Shown here piece by piece: positions 5,841 to 59,945 of a stretch of 64,000 nucleotides of DNA (position 1 is its first letter; every line of letters starts with the position of its first letter). The position numbers and the translations under genes were made by a program. The stretch is taken from NCBI GenBank assembly GCA_009387755.1, contig GG697240.1:126001-190000 (forward strand). The letters run 5' to 3'. Below the pieces are notes generated by a model, which worked only from the letters and a program-made list of their open reading frames with translations, was not told where the DNA came from and searched no databases. The DNA comes from Candidatus Micrarchaeum acidiphilum ARMAN-2 (GTDB lineage: Archaea; Micrarchaeota; Micrarchaeia; Micrarchaeales; Micrarchaeaceae).

Positions 5841-5932
5841 TGGACTCTGCGGGATTTTCATGCATTTTGCGCATTTTGAACCCGCAACCTCCTGCATGCC
5901 ATGCAGGCGCGCTACCGTTGCGCCAAGAGCCC
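5841..5932 (-). tRNA. tRNA-Ala(GGC) with a 20-nt intron in the T loop
   Basis: The 92-base gene folds as GGGCTCT/AGAGTCC acceptor, GCGC D stem, CCTGC/GCAGG anticodon stem with loop ATGGCAT (anticodon GGC), and GCGGG/CCCGC T stem, discriminator A. The T loop is interrupted by 20 bases (5855-5874). These form a bulge-helix-bulge: central helix TTCA/TGAA, 3-nt bulges AAA and AAT, inner helix TGC/GCA. Cutting after the second base of each bulge leaves a 7-nt TTCAAAT loop, placing the intron at 59/60. CCA is not encoded. Confidence 0.9.
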
Positions 5933-24688: not shown

Positions 24689-26134
24689 ATGGCTGAAGAA
24701 ATAAAGAAGATAAACGAGTTTTTGTGGGAAATAGAGAAGAATGACACGCGCAACATGAATGTGCCTGTAAACATATATGCAAATGAGACCATATTGAACA
24801 TGATGCAGAAGGACAGGACTTTGCTTCAGGCGAAGAATGCGTCCACGCTCCCACATATAGTCAAGGCAATGCTCGTTATGCCGGACGGGCACGAGGGATA
24901 CGGATTCCCGGTCGGAGGAGTTGCTGCATTTGACGCTAACGAAGGGATAATATCGCCCGGAGCAATAGGGTTTGACATAAACTGCGGGGTCAGGCTGATA
25001 AAGACAAACATGGACATCAAGGAGGTTGCACCAAAGCTTCCCAAGCTTATGGACAGACTTTTCGCAAACGTTCCAAGCGGGGTTGGCAGCAAGATAAAGC
25101 TCGGCTTCACTAAAGGCGATCTTGAGAAAGTAGCCGTTGAAGGGGTAGGATACATAATAGGCAAAGGCTTCGGCTTTCCAGATGACGCGGAAAGGATTGA
25201 GGAAAACGGCTGCATGATGGGCGCAAACCCGGACAAGGTCTCGAAGCTTGCAAAGGACCGCGGTGTGCAGCAGCTCGGCACCCTTGGCGCCGGCAACCAT
25301 TTCCTAGAGGTCCAGAAGGTCGACAGGATACTTGACGAAAAGACCGCCAAGGCGTTCGGCCTGCAGAAGGACGAAGTGGTGATAATGGTCCACAGCGGAT
25401 CCAGAGGCTACGGGCACCAGGTCTGCAGCGACTACCTCAGAACGCTGAACGATTACCTTCTGGCCAACAACATAACGCTTGTGGACCCTGAGCTCAGCTA
25501 CGCTTACATAGGCTCGAAGGAGGCAAACGACTACCTAGATGCGATGAAGTGCGCGGTGAACTTTGCATTCACCAACAGGCAGATAATGACCGCTTCGATA
25601 AGGAAAAGCTTCGAGGAGGTGTTTTCAAAAAGCGCAGACATGCTGGGCATGGAAATAGTCTACGACGTAGCGCACAACATTGCAAAGCTTGAGGAGCACG
25701 AAGTGGACGGAAAGCGCATGAAGCTTTACGTGCACAGGAAGGGCGCGACAAGAGCCTTCGGGCCGGGCAATCCCGAGGTGACAAAGATTTACAGGGAGTA
25801 CGGGCAGCCCGTGCTTATACCGGGAAGCATGGGATCCGCAAGCTACGTCCTTTCCGGAAGGGCAGAGGCCATGCGCGAAACGTTCGGGTCCTCGTGCCAC
25901 GGCTCTGGCAGAGTGATGTCAAGGCATCAGGCGATAAGGGAGATACCCGCATCCAAGACCTTGGGAGACCTTGACAGGAAGCACATAGAAGTCAGGGTAA
26001 GGAGCAAGAAGCTCATAAGTGAGGAAGCGGAATGGGCCTACAAGAATGTTGATGACGTTGTCGCCAGCATAGCAGGGGCCAAGATATCCAATATCGTTGC
26101 CAGGCTCGTGCCGGTTGGAGTAGCGAAAGGCTGA
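24689..26134 (+). CDS. rtcB: tRNA-splicing ligase RtcB
   Basis: A 481-aa ligase from the ATG at 24689. LVMPDGHEGYGFPVGGVAAF, GAIGFDINCGVRL, LGAGNHFLEVQ, HSGSRGYGHQV and VYDVAHNIAKLEEH carry the conserved Asp, Cys and His ligands for manganese and the guanylated-histidine region lies near the C-terminus (SSCHGSGRVMSR). RtcB joins 2',3'-cyclic phosphate and 5'-OH ends, completing removal of tRNA introns; three intron-bearing tRNAs are in this window. A TTG 9 bases upstream is a possible alternative start. No intein. Confidence 0.96.
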   Translation: MAEEIKKINEFLWEIEKNDTRNMNVPVNIYANETILNMMQKDRTLLQAKNASTLPHIVKAMLVMPDGHEGYGFPVGGVAAFDANEGIISPGAIGFDINCGVRLIKTNMDIKEVAPKLPKLMDRLFANVPSGVGSKIKLGFTKGDLEKVAVEGVGYIIGKGFGFPDDAERIEENGCMMGANPDKVSKLAKDRGVQQLGTLGAGNHFLEVQKVDRILDEKTAKAFGLQKDEVVIMVHSGSRGYGHQVCSDYLRTLNDYLLANNITLVDPELSYAYIGSKEANDYLDAMKCAVNFAFTNRQIMTASIRKSFEEVFSKSADMLGMEIVYDVAHNIAKLEEHEVDGKRMKLYVHRKGATRAFGPGNPEVTKIYREYGQPVLIPGSMGSASYVLSGRAEAMRETFGSSCHGSGRVMSRHQAIREIPASKTLGDLDRKHIEVRVRSKKLISEEAEWAYKNVDDVVASIAGAKISNIVARLVPVGVAKG

Positions 26135-29392: not shown

Positions 29393-29511
29393 TTTGAATA
29401 CCCGCAGGCCGAATTTATAACCCTAGAATTTTGATATTATATATTATATTATTTTGGCTTTGGCTGTGGTGCAGAAGTACGTCACTACAATTAGCCAGTG
29501 GAGAATAGATG

Positions 29512-29585
29512 CGCCCTTGCCGGGATTTGGACCCGGATCACAGGCTCCGCAAGCCCGCGTTCTATCCAAGTTATACTACAAGGGC
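29512..29585 (-). tRNA. tRNA-Arg(GCG)
   Basis: A 74-base tRNA: GCCCTTG/CAAGGGC acceptor, CGGGC/GCCTG anticodon stem with loop TTGCGGA (anticodon GCG), CCGGG/CCCGG T stem with TCCAAAT loop, discriminator G. No intron, no encoded CCA. Confidence 0.93.
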
Positions 29586-58301: not shown

Positions 58302-58315
58302 CCAGGGCACTTATG

Positions 58316-58390
58316 CGGGCTCGGTGGGATTTGGACCCACGACTTAGAGGTTAAAAGCCTCCCACTCTGGCCAAACTGAGTTACGAGCCC
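58316..58390 (-). tRNA. tRNA-Lys(TTT)
   Basis: A 75-base tRNA: GGGCTCG/CGAGCCC acceptor, ACTC/GAGT D stem, GGAGG/CCTCT anticodon stem with loop CTTTTAA (anticodon TTT), GTGGG/CCCAC T stem with TCCAAAT loop, discriminator G. No intron, no encoded CCA. Confidence 0.94.
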
Positions 58391-59311: not shown

Positions 59312-59758
59312 ATGAACAGGGTATACGAATTCATGTCAGGAGACCACAGGCGGCTCGACGCGCTGCTTGCAGAGGCAAGGGCTCTTTGCGGCTCTGGCAA
59401 TGCACAGGACGCGGCTTCCAAGTTTGAAGCCTTTAGGCAAGGGCTGCTAAGGCACATTGGCTGGGAGGAGTATATACTGTTTGGAATGGTTTACGAAGAG
59501 CTCAAAGACAGGGACGTGCTCATAATAGACGAACTAAAGCTGCAACACGCAAGGATACGCGAGGACCTTGAAGCCATAGGTGCAGCACCATGCAACAAGG
59601 CTTCAGAGACATTGATGAACGATCTTGCCGCCGTGCTTGATGCGCACGACAGGATGGAAGAGGAAGGATTTTACCCGTGGCTGGACGAAAGCCTGGACGA
59701 ATCCAAGATAGACGCAGCTATGGCTGCAATTAAAAAATCTATTGAGCCGAGGCCTTAG
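59312..59758 (+). CDS. Hemerythrin HHE-domain protein
   Basis: A 148-aa four-helix protein from the ATG at 59312, which has GGGAGAGG directly upstream. Histidine and acidic ligands of a di-iron site are in place: GDHRRLD, LRHIGWEEYILF, LQHARIREDL and DAHDRMEEEGFYPW. Such proteins bind oxygen or nitric oxide or handle iron. Its TAG stop lies inside the 3' acceptor strand of tRNA-His on the other strand, an eight-base overlap of convergent genes. Confidence 0.85.
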   Translation: MNRVYEFMSGDHRRLDALLAEARALCGSGNAQDAASKFEAFRQGLLRHIGWEEYILFGMVYEELKDRDVLIIDELKLQHARIREDLEAIGAAPCNKASETLMNDLAAVLDAHDRMEEEGFYPWLDESLDESKIDAAMAAIKKSIEPRP

Positions 59759-59838
59759 CCGGGATTTTCGCCGTATGGAATCGAACCCGGACTTGAGGAT
59801 CCACAGTCCTCCGTGCAAACCGCTACACCACTAAGGCC
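59751..59838 (-). tRNA. tRNA-His(GTG) with a 15-nt intron in the T loop
   Basis: The gene has the extra 5' G(-1) opposite C73, GCCTTAG/CTAAGGC acceptor, GTGT/GCAC D stem, GAGGA/TCCTC anticodon stem with loop CTGTGGA (anticodon GTG), and CCGGG/CCCGG T stem. Fifteen bases (59765-59779) interrupt the T loop in a bulge-helix-bulge: TTCG/CGAA central helix, bulges ATT and AAT, inner CC/GG closing ATAC. Cutting after the second base of each bulge gives TTCGATT, with the intron at 59/60, the same place as in tRNA-Ala. Confidence 0.9.
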
Positions 59839-59945
59839 CAGAATTGGCAATTTAGTATTATTCATAACGCACTATTTATATATTTTGATTCGATTTCTGC
59901 AAAATGGATTTTGGGCAGGTTTGGCTTCGGCGATGCACGGTTTTG

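Follow-up and report, generated by a model that had tools for sequence, protein, structure and literature searches.

Bulge-helix-bulge (BHB) introns lying outside position 37/38 have been described in tRNA genes of the Thermoproteales, where similar introns in different tRNAs point to large-scale transposition (Fujishima et al. 2010, followed here through the citing portions of PMC4033280 and PMC4090602). In the permuted tRNAs of Thermofilum pendens and Cyanidioschyzon merolae, whose halves are swapped, a BHB is found at exactly 59/60 (PMC3218864, in its accessible portion). The C. merolae pre-tRNA-Ile(UAU), one tRNA with three introns, carries an hBHBh' intron in its T-arm at 53/54 (PMC9602550, likewise). 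A further precedent is the splicing endonuclease of ARMAN-2. PDB entry 4FZ2 is named as this enzyme in the consulted part of PMC6379350, and a broad specificity reaching beyond 37/38 is reported there and in PMC12397907. According to the excerpt available from the latter, ARMAN-2 VSEN cleaves ARMAN-2 pre-tRNA-Cys(GCA), termed "BHL-type", in vitro, and pre-tRNA-Ile(UAU) is cleaved as well. Published work already covers BHB introns at sites other than 37/38, T-loop sites, the transposition of tRNA introns, and the ARMAN-2 enzyme. A literature search directed mostly at papers outside subscription found no T-loop introns of Micrarchaeota beyond the ARMAN-2 enzyme work.

The gene studied here is the single tRNA-His gene of Candidatus Micrarchaeum acidiphilum ARMAN-2, an archaeon placed in the Micrarchaeaceae by taxonomy, with a genome of 1.01 Mb. 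The gene lies in a 64,000-nt stretch of DNA (hereafter, the window) and is interrupted in its T-loop. We hold it to be very probable that the insert is an archaeal BHB tRNA intron, removed by EndA and RtcB, whose position at 59/60 follows from loop geometry and not from ancestry. The likeness to the Thermoproteales lies in the BHB intron outside 37/38 and in the resemblance between introns of different tRNAs, which holds here for Ala and Arg; the phylum and the EndA type are different, however, and no other intron of the genome is visibly akin to that of tRNA-His. With the permuted tRNAs it shares the exact site, but it is an ordinary intron in a gene of normal order. The C. merolae intron is alike in occupying the T-arm and unlike in its site, its eukaryotic host and its two companion introns. 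ARMAN-2 pre-tRNA-Cys(GCA) is handled by the same enzyme, and its T-loop site is deduced below; the His intron differs from it in length (15 versus 13 nt), in an inner helix of 2 bp, and in that its cleavage is a prediction.

Structure of the interrupted tRNA-His gene

The tRNA-His(GTG) gene occupies positions 59751 to 59838 of the minus strand, as defined by its cloverleaf and by a match to the Rfam tRNA model RF00005. The first-pass annotation had delimited it exactly, provided that G-1 (59838) and the discriminator C73 are counted in. Exon 1 (tRNA positions -1 to 59) spans 59780 to 59838, with boundaries set by the BHB cut rule and by intronless orthologues; it is followed on the same strand by the 15-nt intron TCCATACGGCGAAAA at 59/60 (59765 to 59779) and by exon 2 (positions 60 to 73; 59751 to 59764). 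A TATA-like BoxA, TATATAAAT, can be assigned from the archaeal tRNA promoter rule about 35 to 46 nt upstream (59873 to 59884, minus strand), and a T-rich run downstream, ATTTTTTAA (59730 to 59738, minus strand), is likely to be the terminator. The gene is barely detected by the Rfam model (score 29.8 bits, cut-off 29) and receives no call from ARAGORN. A search of the whole genome gave this one tRNA-His match and no second, intact gene.

Read 5' to 3', the T-arm is CCGGG TTCG AT/T CC ATAC GG CGAA AA/T CCCGG, where slashes mark the cuts at 59/60. All stems of the tRNA are intact, the T-stem being CCGGG/CCCGG. The exon bases at positions 54 to 57 (TTCG; 59782 to 59785, minus strand) form a 4-bp central helix with the intron strand CGAA (59767 to 59770, minus strand), a pairing seen in folding and in the covariation of relatives described below, and 3-nt bulges, ATT and AAT, lie at the exon-intron junctions. 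This is the motif that the first-pass annotation had recognised, and the minimum-energy fold computed by RNAfold contains exactly this BHB, both in the 32-nt T-arm and in the 88-nt precursor. Since the inner helix comprises just 2 bp (CC/GG) closed by the loop ATAC, the motif appears to resemble a bulge-helix-loop more closely than a strict hBHBh'; several relatives have longer inner helices, as judged by eye. Removal of the insert yields a normal cloverleaf with the 7-nt T-loop TTCGATT. Folding energy was dropped as a proof of the motif, being not much better than that of shuffled sequences (z of -1.04 for the T-arm and -1.55 for the precursor). Moreover, shuffling the insert produced a complete 4/4 helix in 6242 of 200000 trials, or about 3%, so that the tRNA-His gene by itself is only suggestive.

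Empty sites, covariation and history of the insert

tRNA-His was searched for in 85 genomes of the family, 56 of which gave a match and 55 a readable gene. The match in G057 was left out because it covers the T-arm part only and coincides with the pattern match of another tRNA. The 30 genomes that lack a readable tRNA-His, among them the sister species G074, include many incomplete ones and were not counted. A plain 7-nt T-loop, that is, an empty site, is present in 37 of the 55 readable genes (35 of 50 plus 2 of 5), while the remaining 18 have an insert of 13 to 41 nt at the same place. In five intronless orthologues (L200, L201, L202, L221 and L222) the T-loop is TTCGATT, identical to the predicted spliced product.

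The 18 inserts had been collected by exon similarity and not by their ability to form a BHB. Nucleotide 55 and its intron partner are T-A in nine of them and C-G in the other nine, with zero exceptions (Fisher p 4e-5, uncorrected for relatedness); on the 11 distinct rows, the covariation score was reached by 1 of 500 shuffles. The complete 4/4 helix is found in 16 of the 18, as against a mean of 0.36 and a maximum of 5 in shuffled sets, and the pair at nucleotide 57 is lost (G-G) in two. The perfect covariation of nucleotide 55 with its partner argues that the helix is real. Altogether, the empty-site orthologues, the covariation and the presence of genes for EndA and RtcB in the genome support the view, put forward in the first-pass annotation, that the tRNA-His insert is an intron with a BHB.

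Position 55 is usually pseudouridine. C55 is found in the tRNA-His of many relatives, and in several other tRNAs the T at this position is replaced by C or G, as in GGTCCAAATCC and GGTGCGAATCC (window positions 58315 to 58390 and 29511 to 29585; L011 and L015).

On a quick EndA tree of 67 rows, in which 20 of 63 inner branches are open and which omits two of the 55 genomes (G025 and G056), presence or absence of the intron in tRNA-His requires at least seven changes, a count that does not separate gain from loss. The genus of ARMAN-2 groups with genera g10, g23 and g24 (SH-aLRT 94), and within this group all eight genomes of known state have short inserts of 13 to 16 nt. The carriers in g13, g27 and g15 have longer ones, of 22 to 41 nt.

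Two other accounts of the insert bear on these data. Had it been retained in the mature molecule, the gene would specify an enlarged T-loop or be dead, as the silence of ARAGORN might suggest; yet this is the sole tRNA-His match of the genome and its stems are intact, orthologues occur both with and without the insert, and the pairing covaries. The insert-free form is the state of most relatives, and we regard retention as exceedingly improbable. The other account accepts the insert as an intron and has it kept by selection, in that it breaks up a tRNA gene used as a target by integrating elements, an idea of Randau and Soll as cited in PMC3293823. T-loop inserts are indeed frequent in the family and were repeatedly gained or lost, with the changes counted for His as an example; on the whole, we consider protection of this kind unlikely. 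The preferred reading, a BHB intron removed by splicing, also has a practical side, since common tRNA finders overlook genes with T-loop introns. More broadly, the intact and empty sites of this 85-genome family allow one to trace how tRNA introns are gained, lost and exchanged.

Splicing enzymes and the position 59/60

Both enzymes expected to act on such an intron are encoded in the genome. EndA, contained in a 408-aa frame, is identical over 387 aa (100%) to PDB 4fz2, a sequence shared with 9w2k. The RtcB tRNA ligase is encoded in the window on the plus strand at 24827 to 26131, within a longer frame of 485 aa, and matches Pfam PF01139 with an E value of 1.7e-165. The tRNA-Cys(GCA) gene of the same genome has one insert, located in the T-loop. 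The substrate cleaved in vitro was therefore very probably the product of a T-loop intron gene, and the cleavage very probably took place at this class of site, as far as the available portion of PMC12397907 goes.

Processing of tRNA-His can be envisaged as follows. In the folded primary transcript, the T-stem would serve as outer helix and nucleotides 54 to 57 would be paired to the intron, with a 3-nt bulge on either side. EndA, an enzyme of the three-unit (epsilon2) type, would then cut between nucleotides 2 and 3 of each bulge and release 15 nt, after which RtcB would join the exons into a tRNA with the 7-nt T-loop TTCGATT. Splicing along these lines presumably takes place in the cell.

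The same model suggests why the intron sits at 59/60. If the T-stem is the outer helix and a 5' spacer is lacking, a 7-nt loop would supply four paired bases and two bulge bases before the cut, and one bulge base after it. The sole BHB-compatible cut in such a loop would fall after loop nucleotide 6, which is 59/60 in the T-loop and corresponds to 37/38 in the anticodon loop. Among 14 parsed anticodon-loop introns, seven show the corresponding 4/4 helix in its strict form, so that the geometric rule is a tendency rather than a law. Permuted tRNAs joined at 59/60 in Thermofilum and C. merolae (PMC3218864, in part) fit the geometric reading, while the 53/54 intron of C. merolae (PMC9602550, in part) implies that the T-arm can accommodate introns elsewhere when different helices are formed. 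Recurrence of 59/60 would accordingly call for no common ancestor: a shared site needs no shared descent where loop geometry largely fixes it.

T-loop introns of other tRNAs and their spread

The first-pass annotation had counted two tRNAs interrupted at 59/60. The other case, tRNA-Ala(GGC), is borne out (5841 to 5932, minus strand, with a 20-nt T-loop intron at 5874 to 5855, site 59/60), but the count was too low: at least seven tRNAs of the genome have T-loop inserts, namely His, Ala, Arg-TCT, Arg-TCG, Arg-CCT, Cys-GCA and Leu-CAA, the last recognised with a relaxed motif only. Two of them, tRNA-Cys(GCA) (L044, G000:C5:53263, where G000 is the genome of the window) and tRNA-Arg(CCT) (L050, C7:287575), are absent from the 40 Rfam matches and were recovered by pattern search, not by the Rfam tRNA model. 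Bare motif patterns found no more in the genome than in a backward control (10 versus 10; 40 versus 56) and are thus no evidence alone, the separation being made by the tRNA context. Pattern matches L045 and L142 were rejected as not tRNA-like.

The first-pass annotation had further read the common position in His and Ala as a sign of shared origin, by transposition or by reverse splicing into a favoured site of the T-loop. When the tRNAs of the genome and its relatives were scanned and the introns compared, as it had proposed, those of tRNA-Ala and the three tRNA-Arg (TCT, TCG and CCT) proved clearly alike, forming one family by sequence. The His intron, however, resembles none of the Ala, Cys, three Arg and Leu introns above shuffle level once the BHB bases are set aside; those of Cys and Leu likewise stand alone in the genome. 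The inner sequences of His (TCCATACGG) and Ala (ATGCGCAAAATGCA) were matched equally well by 1195 of 2000 shuffles, and on this ground common descent of the two was rejected; the shortness of these sequences restricts the power of the comparison to reveal an ancient homology. The identical position, the kinship of the Ala and Arg introns and the raised similarity between introns of one genome described below do speak for a single mobile intron; against it are the unrelated inner parts, the different lengths (15 and 20 nt), and the 13- to 16-nt inserts in tRNA-His of the grouped genera g10, g23 and g24, which probably place the origin of the His intron before that of its genus. With the position itself probably set by geometry, we find it very unlikely that the introns of His and Ala arose from one ancestor. 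Movement between tRNA genes, as such, is supported for Ala and Arg in this genome and, across the family, most clearly for Ala and Cys in genus g26 (below), not for His and Ala.

For the family as a whole, insert sequences were obtained directly by pattern and BLAST searches. Among the matches listed (82 inserts), same-genome pairs from tRNAs for different amino acids have a mean identity of 0.494, against 0.429 on permutation, a value as high being reached in 1 of 5000, although base composition may account for part of the excess. An identity of 0.8 is found in 7 of 63 same-genome pairs; the corresponding figures are 15 of 2345 for pairs from different genera and 12 of 77 for pairs from different species within a genus. 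For most of 80 inserts (again among the matches listed) the search pattern demanded GAA, which biases their helix score of 77/80; this bias is absent only from the 18 inserts of the His set and the 33 valid inserts of the Ala set. The Ala set derives from 53 loci, 52 of them parsed (G077 was not); 18 are intronless, and 31 of the 33 valid inserts have the 4/4 helix. G016 was misparsed, and its insert is not among the 33.

In genus g26, the tRNA-Ala(GGC) of G079 and G080 combines T-loop TTCAAA with introns of 30 and 27 nt, while that of G075, G076 and G082 combines TTCGAA with a short intron. The Ala intron is nearly the same as the genome's own Cys intron in G075 (12 of 13 bases) and G076 (13 of 16), as counted by eye. 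In genus g24, ATTGCGAAAA is common to the Cys and His introns. The g26 exchange perhaps resembles gene conversion of the T-arm, and the concomitant change at exon position 57 fits copying at the DNA level somewhat better than reverse splicing. T-loop introns might then pass between tRNA genes by such conversion, the His intron being one resident lineage; both the g26 and the g24 likenesses would be explained, but no donor is visible for the ARMAN-2 tRNA-His intron, and, position 57 being paired with the intron, a later compensatory change could also account for the altered base. Besides, TTCGAAT is present in Ala of intronless genomes too (G020, G066 and G067). We entertain DNA-level transfer tentatively, at slightly less than even chances. 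With the same reserve, the Micrarchaeaceae T-arm may be pictured as an exchangeable cassette, in which conversion between tRNA genes for different amino acids adds, removes and overwrites introns at 59/60, taking base 57 along; if so, introns would evolve in concert within a genome and not with their own tRNA.

In the sister species G074, the introns of Arg-TCT and Arg-CCT (L225 and L226) are identical; in the genome of the window they differ. Many relatives (L232, L237, L246, L251, L263 and others) have a tRNA, taken here to be Ser(GGA), that seemingly has two introns, in the anticodon loop and in the T-loop. Judged by its recurrent ending, GCTGAATATCC, the latter is possibly the best conserved of the family's T-loop introns among the matches listed; it gave no pattern match in the genome of the window. 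Finally, L041 (G000:C7:112864-112935), a degraded tRNA-like copy scoring 27.3 bits, under the Rfam cut-off, lies near tRNA-Glu(TTC) at C7:113639 and looks like a tRNA-Glu pseudogene.
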